In this document: positions 6,501 to 39,079 of the stretch, one piece after another
How positions within the stretch are numbered: the stretch's first letter is position 1
Layout: each line of letters starts with the position of its first letter
Source: Phycisphaerales bacterium
GTDB lineage: Bacteria > Planctomycetota > Phycisphaerae > Phycisphaerales > UBA1924
Reading direction: 5' to 3'
Length of the DNA: 64,000 bases
NCBI GenBank assembly: GCA_040221175.1
Contig: JAVJVK010000004.1
Span: 604,268 to 668,267 of the forward strand
Made by a program: the position numbers and the translations under genes
The notes under the pieces: generated by a model
What the model was told of the DNA's origin: nothing
The model's input: the letters and a program-made list of their open reading frames with translations, nothing else
Databases searched by the model: none

Positions 6501-7346
6501 CTACGCCAGCGGCCGGTTCGAGCCCAGGCCCGTCAGGTCGTCGTGCAGGGTGATCAGGCGGGCGGTGTCGTCGTCGGGCGGGCGGGTGTTGCCGATCTGG
6601 TCGACAAGCTCGCACACGGCGTACTTCGAGCACGCCTGCTCGTAGTTCCGCAGCCAGGCATTGACCCGCTCGTCCGCGTCGGCAAGCTTCTCAAAGGTGA
6701 GCTTGGGGGCGCCGGCGATGCCGATGCGCCATGGCTTGGGGCTCAAGCGGGCGCGGAAGCTCTGCTGGGCCCGGCAGAGTCGTGCGTAGAGCGGATCGGC
6801 CCCGAGCTGGTCCATCAGGCGCCCCGTGTCGTCGCCGTCGGGTGACATCGCAGGATGCGTGAGCAGGTATCGCAGGCCGGCGGCGGTGCGATAGACGCGG
6901 GCCCCGCTTGACGTGTTCTGGCATGACCAGGCGCGGAGCCGTTCGAGGGCGGCGTCGGTGGAGTTTGCGGGTGGCTGCTTGCGGCCGAAGAGCTTGCCGA
7001 GCAGGCCTCCGCCCGGGTGTTTCTCGGGCAGGTCGACGTCGACGAAGACCAGGCGGGCGGTGTTGAGCACGTTGGCACCGTAGCGATTCATGGTGACGGC
7101 GGCGATGCGGTCGCCGGCGGTGTTGCGGACGTCCTGCACGATGGGCTCGGGCAGGTCGTGCCGCTGGTACTCGTAGTGGTGCAGGCCCGGGTCGTCGGCC
7201 TTGATGACCTCGGCCAGCTTCCTGCGGGCCCGGTCTTCGGCGATCTGCCGCGCCTCGTCGAGGCTGGCGTCGGAGGCGCCCCACGCGCCCCGGCCGTAGC
7301 CGGCTTCTTCTACCTGCGCCCTTGCCCAGAATCGCGCGACTCGCAT
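6501..7346 (-). CDS. Conserved-looking hypothetical protein with DxD and YRTAAGLR motifs
   Basis: This is a 281-aa cytosolic protein without signal or membrane segments. It opens with MRVARFWARAQVE and a helix that includes SLDEARQIAEDRARRKLAEV. A strand with VFVDVDLPE (DxD) follows in the middle, then WSCQNTSSGARVYRTAAGLRYLLTHP and FRARLSPKPWRIG. The DxD strand followed by a Y-R-T-x-x-G-x-R strand is loosely reminiscent of archaeo-eukaryotic-primase-like folds, but I cannot confirm this and give no function. A GGAGAG ribosome-binding site precedes ATG 7346. The gene is convergent with the small lipoprotein, 2 nt apart. Confidence 0.75.
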   Translation of the reverse strand: MRVARFWARAQVEEAGYGRGAWGASDASLDEARQIAEDRARRKLAEVIKADDPGLHHYEYQRHDLPEPIVQDVRNTAGDRIAAVTMNRYGANVLNTARLVFVDVDLPEKHPGGGLLGKLFGRKQPPANSTDAALERLRAWSCQNTSSGARVYRTAAGLRYLLTHPAMSPDGDDTGRLMDQLGADPLYARLCRAQQSFRARLSPKPWRIGIAGAPKLTFEKLADADERVNAWLRNYEQACSKYAVCELVDQIGNTRPPDDDTARLITLHDDLTGLGSNRPLA

Positions 7347-11597: not shown

Positions 11598-12305
11598 TTA
11601 CCCCGCGCTCTTCTGGTCCTTGGCCTCCGTCGGCGCGATGCTGCCGGCGGGGTTGTTGGCCTGGCTGCCGAAGGGGATGATCAGCGTCTGGCTCCAGCTG
11701 CTCTGCGGGCCGGTCGCCAGGCGTGCGGCGACGCGGTAGCCCACGCTCTTGATGCCCTCGGGCACGGCGTTGTCGGTGAAGGTCTTGTCGTCCTTGGCAA
11801 AGCCCATGAACTCGTAGGGGCCCGGTGCGCCATCGAGGGGCGTGAGGATCCGCTGGACCAGGTAGGTGGCCCCGCCGCCGGCGGCGACCTTGAAGGACAG
11901 GTCGACCGAGCCGTCGGTATCGACCACGGCGCGGAGGTCGGTGGGCGCGGGCGGGGCGTCGCGGACGCTGGGGTCCTTGGGCGCCGGGATGCCCGCCAGG
12001 GCGTAGACGCCGGGGTTATTCGTTGCCTTGGCGTAGGCGTCGATGGTGTCGATGTCGCCGCCGAAGATGGCGCGGAGGGCCTCGAGCTTGGCGTTCTTGG
12101 TACCGGTGGCCGTGCGAGCGGAGTTTCTCGCCGCGAGCATCGCGTTGTATGCGGATTCTGCCTCCAGAACGGCATTTTCCGTATCGATGAGTTGCTGTGC
12201 GGACAAACCCGTATCGGGGGGCCCGGCCTGGCCGCCCTTCCACTCGGCGATGCGCTGCTTGGCGTAGGTGATGAAGGCGGCCTCTGCGTTGGGGAATCGC
12301 GGCAT
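11598..12305 (-). CDS. Protein with a C-terminal fibronectin type III-like domain
   Basis: This 235-aa protein has a helical N-terminal half: MPRFPNAEAAFITYAKQRIAEW, then a long helix with ENAVLEAESAYNAMLAARN. The C-terminal domain of about 90 residues (PPAPTDLRAVVDTDGSVDLSFKV onward, ending YRVAARLATGPQSSWSQTLIIPFG) has the strand pattern of a fibronectin type III module. There is no signal peptide, which is unusual for FN3 proteins and suggests a cytosolic location or a non-classical route. GGAG lies 7-10 nt before ATG 12305. The function is unknown. Confidence 0.75.
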   Translation of the reverse strand: MPRFPNAEAAFITYAKQRIAEWKGGQAGPPDTGLSAQQLIDTENAVLEAESAYNAMLAARNSARTATGTKNAKLEALRAIFGGDIDTIDAYAKATNNPGVYALAGIPAPKDPSVRDAPPAPTDLRAVVDTDGSVDLSFKVAAGGGATYLVQRILTPLDGAPGPYEFMGFAKDDKTFTDNAVPEGIKSVGYRVAARLATGPQSSWSQTLIIPFGSQANNPAGSIAPTEAKDQKSAG

Positions 12306-12565
12306 GATGCACGCTCCGGGTTCTGCGGGCTCGGTCGACGCCGGCCCAGGTCTCCGTGGTCCGCTGTCCTTCCGGCGACGCTGCCGGCTGGGTGGGCCAC
12401 AGGACCTGTATCGAGAGGATCGGAGGGGCACTTCAGTCGGCGTGCGATGGAAAGCGCGAAAAAGTGGGCTGGAGGGGTGGAATCGGGGCTGGGAGGGCGT
12501 GCGGGGGGTTTTTATTGGGCCGACGGGGTTAGGGCGGGGCCTTTAGGAAAGCCGCAGCCTGCCAA

Positions 12566-12636
12566 CTTCCGCTCCCGCCCCCGGCGGGGGAGGTGGCCAA
12601 GCAAGCGAAGCGCCGCGAGGTCGGAAGGGGGCTCCC
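12566..12636 (-). repeat. REP-like GC-rich element, left copy
   Basis: This element lies between the last Pycsar-type gene and the FN3-like gene. Read on the minus strand it runs GCCCCCTTCCGACCTCG, a variable middle, then GGCCACCTCCCCC and GGGGGCGGGAG, which can fold into strong hairpins. A related copy in the opposite orientation lies at 16487-16550, on the other side of the island. The left copy may also end transcription of the operon. The remaining 12306-12565 stretch holds a GATACA-type -10 candidate for the FN3 gene and little else. Confidence 0.7.
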
Positions 12637-12639
12637 CAC

Positions 12640-13341
12640 CTACACCGGCGTTCGATATGCCGACTTGTAACACTCGACCGACTGGCCCTTGAAAGACAAC
12701 GACGTCTTGGTCCACTTGTCTTCGCCCTTGCCGTCCTTCAACTTAGCCTTGCTGTTGAGGCGCGTGTAGACGTCGCGGGTGATAAACGTGGAGCAGTCGG
12801 ATCGGATCTCGGAAAGGATCGCAGCGTAGTTTGCCGCCCTGCCGATCCAGATGAGATCGTTGTTGCCCCGGATCCCTGCACGGACGGCAGTAACCTCCGA
12901 TCGATCAATGCCAACACAGTGCTTCGGCTCGTAGGTGACTCCAGGCCGCATGGCCAACAGAACCGGCTGAACGATCTTCTCCACAGCGAAGTTAATCTGA
13001 AGTGCAGCAATAGCTGCGTTAGAGCACTGAGAGTCGCCGTAGAAAATCGCCATGACGCGATCGCCATCGAAGCTGGCAATTTCACCTTGGTTGTTTCGGA
13101 TGATCCGAACTGCGCTCAGCAAGAACGCCTTTGAGATGGCCGCGGCAATCCTTGCTTGGTTGTCCCTTGCGAGCCCGGTCGAATCGGCAAGATCGGCATA
13201 GAGCATCGTTGCATCAATCTTGGAGCCAACGTTGCCGTAGCCGAGATCGTCTTGCTCGGGGACCTTTCTGCCATCACGTATAGACCATTCCCCGAAGAGG
13301 TCGCGGATATCAGCCGTCAGCTTGTCTGCAAACTCACCCAT
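12640..13341 (-). CDS. pycC: Pyrimidine-cyclase-like nucleotidyl cyclase (Pycsar sensor/synthase, PycC)
   Basis: This 233-aa protein is one class III cyclase homology domain with short flanks. Metal-binding Asp residues are present: D50 in YADLADSTGLA and D94 in FDGDRVMAIF. The catalytic Asn is N171 in IGRAANYAAILSEI; the position four residues later, usually Arg, is Ile175. Stand-alone domains of this type beside a cyclic-nucleotide-binding TIR effector are Pycsar cyclases, which make cCMP or cUMP on phage infection. The class and partner are visible; the nucleotide made is inferred. GGGAGG precedes ATG 13341. It is last in a four-gene operon, 32 nt after the effector gene, in DNA of lower G+C than its surroundings. 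Confidence 0.82.
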   Translation of the reverse strand: MGEFADKLTADIRDLFGEWSIRDGRKVPEQDDLGYGNVGSKIDATMLYADLADSTGLARDNQARIAAAISKAFLLSAVRIIRNNQGEIASFDGDRVMAIFYGDSQCSNAAIAALQINFAVEKIVQPVLLAMRPGVTYEPKHCVGIDRSEVTAVRAGIRGNNDLIWIGRAANYAAILSEIRSDCSTFITRDVYTRLNSKAKLKDGKGEDKWTKTSLSFKGQSVECYKSAYRTPV

Positions 13342-13373
13342 GAAAAACCTCCCGCCATGCCAGAATCTACGCG

Positions 13374-14351
13374 TTACGATCCTTTGTTCGACAAGCCGTC
13401 GTCGATCTTCATGCGATTCCTGATGACGCCCTCTCGCTGGATCTCACGCATGAGCCTGTCGGCAGCCGGCCGCAGGTCGTCTATCAGGGCGTTCTTGATG
13501 TTGCGCTCGAACTGAATCGGCTCTAAGCCAAAGAGGTCAGACGGGATCTTCAAATCCATGCCTCGCTGCTTCGTCATGAAGACCCTGTCGCGGCCGAGCC
13601 GTCCGATGAACAACCCCATCTCAAAAACGACGTTATCGCGAACTGCGTCCTGCAGCACAGCTCTAGACTCCGTTTTGTCGTCTGGGCCAAAAACGAACAA
13701 CGCGAAGTCTGATCGGTTGACTTGATCGATGAGCGATTCCATCGCGTAGCGACTCGGCAAAAATACGTCGTCCGCCGTCCACTCGATCACTTCGATCGCT
13801 TTTTTTGGCTTCATGGCCTCTTTAAAGCCTTTGGTGACCGGCAACGACTCTCTTGAGGATCCGATGAACAGCACCGGTTTGTCATTGGGTGGTACATGGA
13901 ATTTCGATCGTTCTCGCAGGCGATCGGATGCGATCCTGGCCAGCTTGATCGGCATGGAGCAGTGCGTGTTGCACAGATCAAGAAAGTCGCTTGAAGCCAG
14001 CCGCCAAGCCGCGACGTCGCCCGCTGCGGTAACCGTGGCCGATCGAACAGCAGCGCAGTCGATGGCCGCCATCTCGCCGACAGCCTCACCCGCTCGACGG
14101 GTTGCAACATGGTGGCCATTCACCAGGATGTCTACGCATCCCGCCAGGATGAAGTAGGCATCGTCATCACACGCGTCCTGCTCGACGAGGAGTTCACCCT
14201 TCTTGTGTCGAGAAAGCTCGCCTCGCTCGAACACGGCCTCGGCTAGTTCACTATTGCCGGCGATCAGGGCCTGCTCCATCAAGGCTCGAACCGCTGTGCT
14301 CTTGCCGTCTGGACCTTCGAACCGTTCTGCGATGTGACCGCATTCGCTCAT
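13374..14351 (-). CDS. pycTIR: Cyclic-nucleotide-binding TIR effector (PycTIR-like)
   Basis: This 325-aa protein has two domains. Residues about 30-150 form a CRP-type cyclic nucleotide-binding domain whose phosphate-binding cassette reads GEAVGEMAAIDCAAVRSATV (E89, E93, R103). Residues about 157-285 form a TIR-like domain of the CAP12/Pycsar-effector type: VLFIGSSRE, NRSDFALFVFGPDD and NVVFEMGLFIGRLGRDRVFM, where E244 is the expected catalytic Glu for NAD+ cleavage. In known Pycsar systems cCMP or cUMP binding makes PycTIR destroy NAD+ and stop cell growth. It overlaps the preceding gene by 4 nt and lies directly before the cyclase gene. Effector identity is well supported; the ligand is inferred. 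Confidence 0.88.
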   Translation of the reverse strand: MSECGHIAERFEGPDGKSTAVRALMEQALIAGNSELAEAVFERGELSRHKKGELLVEQDACDDDAYFILAGCVDILVNGHHVATRRAGEAVGEMAAIDCAAVRSATVTAAGDVAAWRLASSDFLDLCNTHCSMPIKLARIASDRLRERSKFHVPPNDKPVLFIGSSRESLPVTKGFKEAMKPKKAIEVIEWTADDVFLPSRYAMESLIDQVNRSDFALFVFGPDDKTESRAVLQDAVRDNVVFEMGLFIGRLGRDRVFMTKQRGMDLKIPSDLFGLEPIQFERNIKNALIDDLRPAADRLMREIQREGVIRNRMKIDDGLSNKGS

Positions 14352-14851
14352 CTGGCCTCCCCAAGCAGGTCACGCAATCGTTGCTCATGCTTGTACTGCT
14401 CGACGCCCTCCTGCCCATGACCCCAGAACGGCCAATCCGCAGGCCACTCGGTAATGCCCTCTTCCTTGGCGATCCAATGCTTCACGATCAGAGCCCTGCT
14501 GTTGTTGATGGCCAGTTCACATCCCTCTTGGATGATCGCGTCCGCCGGCTTCCCCTTCCAGTCCATGGTGTCGCGCCACTCGTCGGGAAGCACCCAGCAC
14601 ATCGGGGGAAAGTTGTGCCAGTCGGCGCCCGTCTTCATCCACGACTCGTCACACCAAATGATGGGCCCGTGCCGCTTGAGGTCATTGAACAACCATGGCA
14701 CTCTCACAATGACTTTGGCATAGGCTGGCCCGATGTCCAGGTGGCCGATCGCCCCGTAAGCCTCGGAAGGCAGCTCGACGACACGTGGGTGGCGCAGACT
14801 GGCGGCAATGGTGTTCGCAAACTTCAGCGAGCGACTCATGTCGTCGCTCAC
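14348..14851 (-). CDS. Small accessory protein of the Pycsar-like operon, possibly E2-like
   Basis: This 167-aa cytosolic protein overlaps both neighbours by 4 nt, so it is built into the operon. I cannot name its family with certainty. The layout has features of a divergent ubiquitin-conjugating (E2/UBC-like) fold: an N-terminal helix, a strand run with YAKVIVRVPWLFN and GPIIWCDESW, then WHNFPPMCWVLPDEW, where H79-N80 followed by C85 could mirror the HxN...Cys active site. The end has WPFWGHGQEGVEQY. E2-like partners are known for CBASS cyclases, where they attach the cyclase to a target. An E2 role here is a hypothesis; C67, C85 and C111 are the only cysteines. Confidence 0.7.
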   Translation of the reverse strand: MSDDMSRSLKFANTIAASLRHPRVVELPSEAYGAIGHLDIGPAYAKVIVRVPWLFNDLKRHGPIIWCDESWMKTGADWHNFPPMCWVLPDEWRDTMDWKGKPADAIIQEGCELAINNSRALIVKHWIAKEEGITEWPADWPFWGHGQEGVEQYKHEQRLRDLLGEAR

Positions 14852-16323
14852 TTGAAGTAGGGCCGATTGTCAACCGGACGCTGAACGCCCGCCGCCACAG
14901 TGACGACGGTCGGAAAACCATCGACGCGGGAGCGGGCGTACGTGCGTGCCAGTTCCTTGGTACTGCTCAAGCGAAAGAGGGTTGAGGTCTGGCCCCGCTG
15001 GTTCGTCGCGGGCCCGAAGTCGGCCTTGTAGTCGTCCGCCAGCCGATCGTGATCGGGCATGAATACCACCACCTCGCCAGTTTCGGGATTGATGTCACCA
15101 AACGCCTGGGTGCTGCGCCCGAATCCCTCGCCGGCCCCAACCAGGAAACGCCGCTGGCCGATCTGGATGCCGCCGAGATAGACGTTGCCGCCAGCGTTGC
15201 CGTGCACATCGCCGCCAGCGACTCCGTGGGCCCAACCGTTGAAGGTGGACCTGGGCATGGACAGGCCCATCTCCTTGTCGAAGTCGACCGGCAACTCCGC
15301 GAGCTTCGTGGCGCTGGCCTTCTCGTATTCGTCCTTCGAGCGGTACACAGCGGCGACCGTGAAGTTATCGCCCGCCCACGGCAATTGGGCCATCGTCACC
15401 GTCTCATGATCCCGCACGAAATCTGCGGCCGCCTCCATGATCTCGGCGAACTCGTCGGCGAGTTCCTGGAGACGATCGTCATCATCCAGGCAGTCTTGCA
15501 CACGCCTTGTGAATCCATCGAGGTCGGCACGCAGCACCCAGCCAAAGTACACGTACGGCTTGTCGGGAGAGGGGGCCAGCGGTGAACCACCGGGGGCGAT
15601 GGGCGCTGCATCGGCCATGACCCGCCGCATCCCCGCGCGGAAGTCGATCTGAGGCTCGGACTTGCGGATGGCCTCGCCGGTGCTGCGAGCGTCTTCCAGG
15701 CGGACGGGCAAGGTGTCAAGCGAGCTGTATGACCAAGCGCCGGTGACCGGGTGCCGCACGCCAACATGGAATCGCTGGAGCCGCCGGTCCGCCTCGGGCT
15801 TGGAGAGTTGCCTGTACAGTTCTTTCGCCGGCCTGTTGGCCGCCTTGCCCAGCGACACCCATGAATCGTCGTCATGCACGCCCCGACCAGAAACGACGAG
15901 AGTCTTGCCCGAGTCCACGGTCATCCGCCAGCCGTCCACCCGCGTGTGGCCCTCGGGGAACAGCGACTTGAACGCCTGATGCAACGCGGCGACAAACGTC
16001 AGCGCGTTGTCGTTAACGCTCGAATCGTTGAGGCCATTACCCCGCTGCAGGGCCACATGCAGGGTTGAACCTTGCACCTCGAACAGCGCGCCACCGCATT
16101 GCTGCGCCAATAGCTGGGCCGCCTCGGCGGCCCGAGCGATAGATCGAAGAAATCTCTTTGCATCCTCCGCCGTACGAGCATTCTCGTACTCAAGGGCAAA
16201 ATCGAGCTTTATGTAGATATGGTCAAGCGGCGTTGGCGTGTACGTCGATGTTAATCCTGCCTGGTGAGCCTCGACGAACGACTTAAGATCCGAAGCCCGC
16301 TGGTACCCGTAACGATCTTGCAT
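14848..16323 (-). CDS. Double nucleotidyl-cyclase-domain protein, first gene of the Pycsar-like operon
   Basis: This 491-aa soluble protein has two cyclase homology domains. Domain 1 (about 33-200) has an Asp at the first metal position (D41 in IKLDFALEYENA) and the base/transition-state motif SLGKAANRPAKEL (N163, with K167 where Arg is usual), but the second metal Asp is replaced (QGSTLHVAL, S86). Domain 2 (about 256-460) has both metal Asps (D267 in RADLDGFTRR, D319 in WAGDNFTVA) but no catalytic Asn (GAGEGFGRSTQ). The domains are thus complementary halves, like C2 and C1 of mammalian adenylyl cyclase, and could form one active site in one chain. ATG 16323 has GGAGG at the right distance; a sigma-54 promoter lies upstream. 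Confidence 0.78.
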   Translation of the reverse strand: MQDRYGYQRASDLKSFVEAHQAGLTSTYTPTPLDHIYIKLDFALEYENARTAEDAKRFLRSIARAAEAAQLLAQQCGGALFEVQGSTLHVALQRGNGLNDSSVNDNALTFVAALHQAFKSLFPEGHTRVDGWRMTVDSGKTLVVSGRGVHDDDSWVSLGKAANRPAKELYRQLSKPEADRRLQRFHVGVRHPVTGAWSYSSLDTLPVRLEDARSTGEAIRKSEPQIDFRAGMRRVMADAAPIAPGGSPLAPSPDKPYVYFGWVLRADLDGFTRRVQDCLDDDDRLQELADEFAEIMEAAADFVRDHETVTMAQLPWAGDNFTVAAVYRSKDEYEKASATKLAELPVDFDKEMGLSMPRSTFNGWAHGVAGGDVHGNAGGNVYLGGIQIGQRRFLVGAGEGFGRSTQAFGDINPETGEVVVFMPDHDRLADDYKADFGPATNQRGQTSTLFRLSSTKELARTYARSRVDGFPTVVTVAAGVQRPVDNRPYFK

Positions 16324-16360
16324 TGCGAATCCTCCGTGGCGATATTGCCCGCGGGGAGGT

Positions 16361-16376
16361 TGCAATGGGTGTGCCA
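16361..16376 (-). promoter_or_regulatory. Sigma-54 (-24/-12) promoter of the Pycsar-like operon
   Basis: On the minus strand the sequence reads TTGGCAC-ACCCA-TTGCAA. This matches the RpoN consensus TGGCAC-N5-TTGC in both boxes and in spacing. The expected transcript start is near 16350, which leaves a leader of about 27 nt that contains the GGAGG ribosome-binding site. Sigma-54 promoters need an activator ATPase bound upstream; none is encoded in the window. Confidence 0.75.
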
Positions 16377-16486
16377 AGTACCCTGACGTCTTTTGCACCT
16401 ACGGGAAGGCCCCAAAAACCCTCACGCCTGCCGTACGGGTGCGATGGCTGCCAATTTGGCGGTCGAGGGGTATCAGCGAGCGACCG

Positions 16487-16550
16487 ACGCCCCCCTCCAA
16501 CCTCGGAAGATCTCGGCCACCTCCCCGGCCGGGGGCGGGGGAGGGAACGG
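16487..16550 (+). repeat. REP-like GC-rich element, right copy (inverted relative to the left copy)
   Basis: Reading on the plus strand: GCCCCCCTCCAACCTCGG, a short middle, then GGCCACCTCCCC and GGCCGGGGGCGGGG. It is clearly related to the element at 12566-12636 but points the other way, so the two copies bracket the four-gene island. It lies about 110-200 nt upstream of the predicted sigma-54 transcript start. Confidence 0.7.
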
Positions 16551-16670
16551 ATCGCCGCCGCAACACCGCCCGAGAACCGCGGCCCTTCCGCCCCGTCTTC
16601 TTCACCGCCGCCCATAACCCCCCGCAGCGCCCGGTCCGATAGAGAAACCGCCCTTGCGCCCCCTAGCAGA

Positions 16671-16880
16671 GTTTCGGGCGTGCAATCCGTCGCTCATGGC
16701 GTGCCGTCAGCCGCTCATGGCACGCCGTCAGCCGCTCGTGGCGTGCCGTCAGCGGCTCACGGCGTGCCGTCCATCGCTCATGGCGTGCCGTCGGCGGCTC
16801 ATGGCCTGCCGTCCGTGGCTCATGGCGCGCCGTCGGCGGCGGGTGGCGTGCCGTCCATGGCTCCGTGGACGCCGTCGGCC
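16671..16880. repeat. 21-nt tandem repeat array 2 (about ten units)
   Basis: Eight clear 21-nt units run from 16692 to 16859, with one divergent unit on each side. The pattern is GCTCATGGCGTGCCGTC followed by a variable four bases (AGCC, GGCG, CATC, CGTG). Unit length never varies although bases do. It lies in the 935-nt gene-free stretch between the defence operon and nrdR. Its reverse-complement relationship to array 1 is partial: both share CATGG(T/C)G(C/T)G. Long ORFs across it are artefacts of the 7-codon period. Confidence 0.88.
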
Positions 16881-17258
16881 GCGCCCGGCGTGACCCGCGT
16901 CGCTGTTGTCGGGGTGGCCGGGGCGGGGTTCTCGGGCGTTGTGCTCTGGCGGAGCAAGGTGGTTCGGGTGCGTCGTGCTCTGGCGGTGCGCCGAGGTTCG
17001 ACGCCCCGGCGGAGCGCCCCTGAGGACAGGGCCGCTGCGCCGGGGCTCGCTCAAGCGTGGTGTTCTTAGGGCGCTCGCGGACTCGCGTGCGGGCTGCGCC
17101 CGGGCGGCGGGGCCGCCTCGACGGGGACATGCGCGGAGGACCGCGGATGCCCCGTCGCCCTTACAAGATCTAGTGGCCCTTCGGCCGCCGCCCTACCATG
17201 GAGGGAGCCCCCCCCGGCCCCAGGGCTCACCACGCCCCACCACGCCCCCTCACAACAG
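16881..17258. other. Gene-free GC-rich stretch before nrdR
   Basis: No convincing gene is visible. GTGCTCTGGCGG occurs twice, 34 nt apart (16941 and 16975). A CTACCAT motif near 17196 could be a -10 element for nrdR, which would give a leader of about 50 nt; within it GAGCCC and GGGCTC can pair around a C-rich loop. No Shine-Dalgarno sequence is seen before nrdR. Confidence 0.5.
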
Positions 17259-17780
17259 ATGATCTGCCCATACTGCAGCCATAACGACGACAAGGTCATC
17301 GACTCGCGGCCGGCCGAGAGCGGGCGGGCGATCCGGCGGCGGCGGGCGTGCCTGAACTGCGACCGCAGGTTCACCACCTATGAACGCGTCGAGCAGCAGG
17401 CGCGGCTCGTTGTCGTCAAGCGCGATGGCAGCCGGGTGCCGTTCGACCCCGACACGGTCTTGCGGGGCATCCAGGCGGCGTGCGGCAAGCGGCCCATTCC
17501 CGAGGACGCCAAGGCGGGCGTGGTCGAGGCGGTGGAGGACGAGCTGCACCAGGCGTACGAGCGCGAGGTGGAGAGCAGCGTCATCGGCGAGCTGGTGATG
17601 GCCAAGCTGCGCGAGGTCGACGAGGTCGCCTACATCCGCTTCGCCAGCGAGTACCACCAGTTCATGAGCGTGACCGAGCTGCAGCGCGAACTGGACCAGC
17701 TCAAGACCCGGCCGAGAGAAGTCAAGGACCAGCGGGTGCTGTTCGACCCCGAGGAAGACGGCCGGGCGCCGGGTCGCTGA
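17259..17780 (+). CDS. nrdR: Transcriptional repressor NrdR
   Basis: This 173-aa protein senses ATP/dATP and represses ribonucleotide reductase genes. The N-terminal zinc ribbon is intact (C3, C6, C31, C34 in MICPYC and CLNC) with the usual VIDSRPAESGRAIRRRR between. The ATP-cone follows (VKRDGSRVPFDPDTVLRGI, IGELVMAKLREVDEVAYIRFASEY). A C-terminal extension of about 20 residues goes beyond the family norm of about 150. Position and start are unambiguous. Ribonucleotide reductase genes are not in the window. Confidence 0.95.
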   Translation: MICPYCSHNDDKVIDSRPAESGRAIRRRRACLNCDRRFTTYERVEQQARLVVVKRDGSRVPFDPDTVLRGIQAACGKRPIPEDAKAGVVEAVEDELHQAYEREVESSVIGELVMAKLREVDEVAYIRFASEYHQFMSVTELQRELDQLKTRPREVKDQRVLFDPEEDGRAPGR

Positions 17781-39063: not shown

Positions 39064-39079
39064 TGGCACTGATATTGCA
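39064..39079 (+). promoter_or_regulatory. Sigma-54 (-24/-12) promoter
   Basis: CTGGCAC-TGATA-TTGCAC matches the RpoN consensus in both boxes and spacing. It lies 17 nt after the permease stop and would give a leader of about 120 nt for the 855-aa secreted protein, which has GGAG before its ATG. GTGGCC recurs several times in that leader. Confidence 0.7.

Follow-up and report, generated by a model that had tools for sequence, protein, structure and literature searches.

The four-gene Pycsar operon on the minus strand of the window (the whole stretch of DNA that was analysed, 64,000 nucleotides) is very probably (about 0.9) preceded by a working sigma-54 promoter, an inherited design of this Pycsar branch, which would make it a stress-gated operon with an activator acting in trans. 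Based on sequence comparisons, the promoter switch is very probably real, since relatives in other phyla keep the promoter type despite changes in the surrounding DNA. The features of the operon and of its upstream region are presented in Table 1.

Table 1 Features of the Pycsar operon and its upstream region, in window positions.
Feature	Position	Strand	Details and basis
Imperfect 21-nt repeat array	16677..16892		At least 8.5 copies, GGCGTGCCGTCAGCCGCTCAT; between operon and nrdR
Sigma-54 promoter element	16361..16376	-	GG at -25/-24, GC at -13/-12; consensus, matrix, homologues
Predicted transcription start	16350	-	12 nt after C of -12 box; leader ~27 nt; from sigma-54 geometry
Ribosome-binding site GGAGG	16331..16335	-	Sequence; between element and ATG 16323
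Gene 1, two-domain nucleotide cyclase, clade-A-like PycC	14848..16323	-	491 aa; PADLOC, profile, predicted structure
Gene 2, probable E2 (ubiquitin-conjugating-like) protein	14348..14851	-	167 aa, candidate active Cys85; conservation, model
Gene 3, PycTIR effector	13374..14351	-	Cyclic-nucleotide-binding domain and CAP12/Pycsar TIR domain; Pfam, PADLOC
Gene 4, single-domain PycC, clade B	12640..13341	-	PADLOC, PDB match

The element reads TGGCAC-ACCCA-TTGCA from 16376 to 16361, with a T before it (16377) and an A after it (16360), and 37 nt separate its 3′ end from the ATG of gene 1, the first gene of the operon. An earlier note, made from the letters of the window alone, had described a perfect sigma-54 promoter at this place, and the description holds: there are no mismatches to the sigma-54 (RpoN) consensus TGGCAC-N5-TTGCW, and the GGAGG site fits in the leader. 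With a position-specific matrix built from 29 intergenic Salmonella sigma-54 sites (sequences from PMC3844500), the element scored 15.1 bits, the highest value among the 127,966 positions of the two window strands; the runner-up scored 12.0. When the 150 nt upstream of the window's operon were dinucleotide-shuffled 2,000 times, no perfect match arose, which together with the matrix rank places the element above chance. A longer, GTG-initiated frame for gene 1, reaching to 16398, would have put the promoter inside the gene; it was rejected because the alignment with the homologues begins at the ATG at 16323, and the element is therefore intergenic.

A lone match nevertheless needs further support, since at two mismatches the window contains no excess of the pattern (25 found versus 25.5 expected) and since genome-wide pattern searches gave 12 occurrences of TGGCA-N6-TTGCW versus 7 of the reversed control. 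Some of the 12 lie inside genes, and by the comparison with the reversed control about half of the exact-consensus matches in the genome may be chance. Such counts favour the reading that the -24/-12 match is fortuitous and that expression of the operon comes from a promoter, housekeeping or otherwise, missed in a consensus scan; a scan of 12300-17300 found no sigma-70-type promoter, which speaks against that reading, albeit weakly, as the scan says little for this phylum. On sequence grounds, one site is insufficient, and it is conservation in homologues that settles the question.

The gene 1 family was drawn from eleven genomes, including this one, of the Planctomycetota, the Verrucomicrobiota and one alphaproteobacterium. 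Full-length members share 52 to 23% identity with gene 1; a contig end truncates the member from G427. Each locus was searched on its coding strand over the 150 nt that precede the start codon, and up to one mismatch was tolerated. The earlier note had proposed a look for the same -24/-12 boxes in homologous operons, and they were found in seven of the eleven family members, where dinucleotide shuffles of each region gave an expectation of 0.07 (Poisson-binomial P ~2e-14). Outside the window, the sites are perfect in G344 (TGGCACCGTGCTTGCA, 35 nt before the ATG) and G427 (TGGCATATAAATTGCT), and carry one mismatch in JB023 (TGGCAGTACACTTGCT), Robiginitomaculum (TGGCATACTATTAGCT), G739 (TGGCACGGCTTATGCA) and G137 (TGGCATTCTGTTTGCC). 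G137 is Planctomycetes bacterium syqfu (CP087563.1), a culturable carrier. G102 has a degenerate version, TGGTCCGAGAATTGCC, at the corresponding place, and no site was found upstream of the homologues in L040, G631 and G589. Between site and start codon lie 14 to 86 nt, depending on the family member, and the predicted leader in Robiginitomaculum would be only ~3 nt.

The family sites vary mostly at the sixth base and at the A/T after TTGC, while GG and GC are fixed. A pyrimidine precedes TGG in six of the seven, at a position outside the search pattern, and is reportedly expected there in the Barrios consensus. When the Salmonella matrix was applied, the site was the best in its own locus in the window, Robiginitomaculum, G739 and G427, and the second in JB023; the low score in G344 is attributable to a GC-rich spacer unlike Salmonella's. 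Control searches of the gene 1 family loci all came back empty, whether they took the other strand, the pattern in reverse, the stretch from -150 to -1150 or the initial 1400 nt of the gene. Given these empty controls, and the recurrence of the element, identically placed and oriented, in seven homologues with otherwise unrelated upstream DNA, a chance match is very improbable.

The identification of the downstream operon as Pycsar, also made in the earlier note, was borne out by its genes. The effector, gene 3, matches PADLOC PycTIR at 5e-89, with Pfam domains PF10137 (3.6e-27) and PF00027 (5e-13), and gene 4 matches PADLOC PycC at 1.6e-79 and BcPycC (7r65) at 2.2e-42. For gene 1, the PADLOC PycC match is weak (2.3e-9) and there is no Pfam match; PDLC02366 is, however, matched by seven of ten gene 1 family members, the family profile finds PaPycC (6YII) at 1.6e-8, and the best PDB match of the predicted structure is again 6YII (3.2e-17), with the match extending along its length. 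Clade A PycC proteins are defined by two consecutive cyclase domains (PMC11224242), and gene 1 has cyclase motifs in both halves in addition to the model matching 6YII. The metal-binding aspartates are kept in the C-terminal half (RADLDGF, WAGD) and the ANRPAK motif is in the N-terminal half; because these half-sites are complementary, gene 1 likely has a single composite active site. In a tree of the gene 1 family and the plasmid clade-A proteins, a scope that leaves out the other PycC clades, the family forms its own 11-member branch with 100/100 support and a long branch to the plasmid proteins.

Gene 2 adjoins gene 1 directly downstream in all ten loci with a complete region. It has no known family in Pfam and no direct match to the annotated plasmid E2 proteins, and W71, W78-H79, C85, W92 and H125 are invariant in its 10 homologues. 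Its model (pLDDT 91) has bacterial E2s as top structural matches, all with E values of 0.08 or worse, led by the CBASS CdnG-E2 8hsb_B at a weak 0.08. PADLOC E2/E1-E2 models match as many as four of ten family members, the best at 2.4e-6, and the protein is probably E2-like.

Third-position GC is 0.69-0.77 in the operon versus 0.90-0.94 in the neighbouring genes, and gene 1 is absent from five genomes of the same genus, which suggests that the operon was probably acquired by transfer. No copies of the gene 1 family were found in viral contigs or plasmids, nor in phages, which were searched by gene 2 alone. The adjacency of a clade-A-like cyclase and a clade-B PycC, as in the window (12640-16323, minus strand), was also seen at six loci, L053, L095, L100, L103, L104 and L106.

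The sigma-54 element does not belong to Pycsar operons at large. Sigma-54 sites are missing from all sixteen plasmid-borne clade-A PycC operons of Proteobacteria that were searched (0/16; Fisher P 3.7e-4) and from four stand-alone PycC operons from the class of the window, and a general association between Pycsar and sigma-54 is thereby rejected. In several of the plasmid clade-A operons, too, the cyclase has E2, E1 or JAB genes as partners, and several of these operons adjoin genes for ImmA/IrrE, WYL or other regulators. Regulators of the ImmA/IrrE and WYL types are known to keep immune operons repressed until DNA is damaged (PMC13373217). The picture is one in which Pycsar operons are usually locked and the gene 1 branch mostly uses sigma-54 as the lock. 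In G631 (L053; gene 1 start at 6834, minus strand), reading by eye revealed a sigma-70-like promoter overlapping the palindrome TATACGATTCGTATA and a divergent HTH/ImmA-type gene, an arrangement that suggests control of the CapH/CapP type for this copy.

The restriction of the element to this branch could also be expected if TGGCA-N6-TTGC were the site of another DNA-binding protein, an operon-specific repressor or activator, and only resembled a sigma-54 site: a module-specific operator would likewise be kept with its module and be missing in other clade-A Pycsar operons. Such an operator is still less probable than a chance match, as the element is non-palindromic, always faces the gene and varies where sigma-54 sites vary with GG and GC fixed, no regulator gene common to the loci of the gene 1 family was seen, and RpoN is present in all the genomes checked.

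A sigma-54 promoter requires RpoN in the host, and whether the genome has an rpoN gene was a further check named in the earlier note; a single one is present (Sigma54_DBD, E 2.1e-59). An rpoN gene was likewise found in all six of the genomes reached through named homologue loci. Activators need a GA[FY]TGA loop for contact with sigma-54. The genome encodes five strong matches to enhancer-binding AAA+ proteins, four of which have this loop (GAFTGA in L001-L003, GAYTGA in L005), the fifth, L004, reading GAFTDA. Across 41 genomes of the family to which the window belongs, YTGGCAY-N5-TTGCA occurs 81 times versus 19 for the reversed control, so this promoter class is in use in the family.

Binding of RpoN would not by itself make the site a promoter, and the site could serve mainly as a roadblock or be bound silently while the operon is expressed from another promoter; many Salmonella sigma-54 sites are intragenic and uncertain in promoter function (PMC3844500). 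The site in the window is instead intergenic, correctly oriented, at a normal distance from the ribosome-binding site and kept in homologues, and a roadblock or silent site is the least probable of the alternatives considered. The element is thus read here as a working promoter.

For this promoter, the activator would have to be encoded elsewhere. A search for the GxFTGA motif within the homologue loci found no adjacent activator gene beside any copy. The earlier note had suggested that the GC-rich element and the 21-nt array upstream could hold activator sites, which the comparison with relatives did not support: the 250 nt upstream of eight relatives share no motif beyond those in shuffled controls, and no comparable 21-nt array was seen in the upstream regions of relatives that were read. 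The palindrome TGNCAGNCTGNCA, considered as a common enhancer, was rejected, being exact only in G102, loose in three others and absent from the window.

Strong upstream palindromes are present in two relatives, Robiginitomaculum and G427, differ from each other and may be enhancers. In Robiginitomaculum (~L039:188-219) a perfect 14-bp inverted repeat, TCATAATGTCACAC-TTAG-GTGTGACATTATGA, is located ~120 nt ahead of the promoter element; it has no match of equal quality in the rest of that genome and is a candidate enhancer. As a guide to the activator gene, the palindromes of Robiginitomaculum and G427 were set aside, having no useful recurrence elsewhere in those genomes.

In the proposed mechanism, RNA polymerase with RpoN would be held on the element as a closed complex until a bacterial enhancer-binding protein, encoded in trans and responding to its own signal, remodels the complex by ATP hydrolysis. 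A single message starting at ~16350 would then supply all four products: both cyclases, the E2-like protein and PycTIR. When a phage infects, the cyclase would make a cyclic pyrimidine nucleotide that activates PycTIR, and activated PycTIR would destroy NAD+, so that the cell stops. The tight promoter would keep this lethal system scarce until needed. We infer promoter activity and the operon transcript; silence of the operon without activator or stress would be expected from how sigma-54 works, and the biochemical steps of the cyclase and PycTIR would follow those in the Pycsar literature. Extended to the cyclase-E2-effector Pycsar branch in three phyla, a tentative proposal is that sigma-54 replaces the adjacent repressor, and that an activator ATPase sensing phage-linked stress forms a first gate before the cyclic-nucleotide alarm.

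Both cyclases of the operon have known counterparts. Clade A Pycsar (PaPycC, 6YII, and plasmid relatives) likewise has two consecutive cyclase domains in one protein, a PycTIR or PycTM effector and sometimes E2, E1 or JAB neighbours; it differs in that its plasmid operons are without the sigma-54 element, several having adjacent regulators, and the family in the window is a separate branch. Clade B Pycsar (BcPycC, 7R65) includes a close relative of gene 4, whereas the stand-alone PycC operons of the window's class are without the element. Short type II CBASS (CdnG-E2, 8HSB/8YJY) similarly combines a nucleotide cyclase, an E2-like protein and an effector, but its cyclase is a CD-NTase while that of the window is an adenylyl-cyclase-type PycC, and the E2 resemblance is remote.

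In its control, the operon resembles those of CapW/BrxR, CapH+CapP and CapK+CapS, where a dangerous immune operon is kept from being transcribed until a stress signal comes; these are adjacent dedicated repressors relieved by DNA damage (PMC13373217), whereas the lock in the window would be the need of a sigma factor for its activator, with no adjacent regulator. Sigma-54-dependent control of a defence operon has also been proposed for the RtcR-linked CoCoNuT superoperons, which have an RtcR-like activator at the operon head (PMC11090510); in the window operon, by contrast, the activator must act from elsewhere. No paper joining Pycsar and sigma-54 was found in the open-access literature, to which the search was confined. 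Neither the promoter type nor the defence family is new; what appears to be new is their conserved combination.

Abortive-infection operons endanger their owner, and their known silencing is by adjacent repressors that DNA damage relieves. A conserved sigma-54 promoter would be a different lock, with a very low basal leak and opened solely by a signal-sensing ATPase. The prediction is that there would be no Pycsar without RpoN or without the activator, and the module should function in a host only if RpoN and a compatible activator are both present.

Two further groups of sites were observed. A second perfect sigma-54 consensus in the window, TGGCACTGATATTGCA, is at 39064-39079 on the plus strand, ~17 nt past the end of a permease-like gene, with no convincing gene start behind it. 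Elsewhere in the genome, TGGCATCGGCCTTGCA lies ~45 nt before dnaK, and near-identical sites precede two proteins sharing the tail LTIFDFLxFQxAFDAGC. These three sites (L010, genome C1:133292; L016, C4:962711; L020, C19:234170) possibly represent a sigma-54 regulon in this genome that has a spacer consensus of its own.
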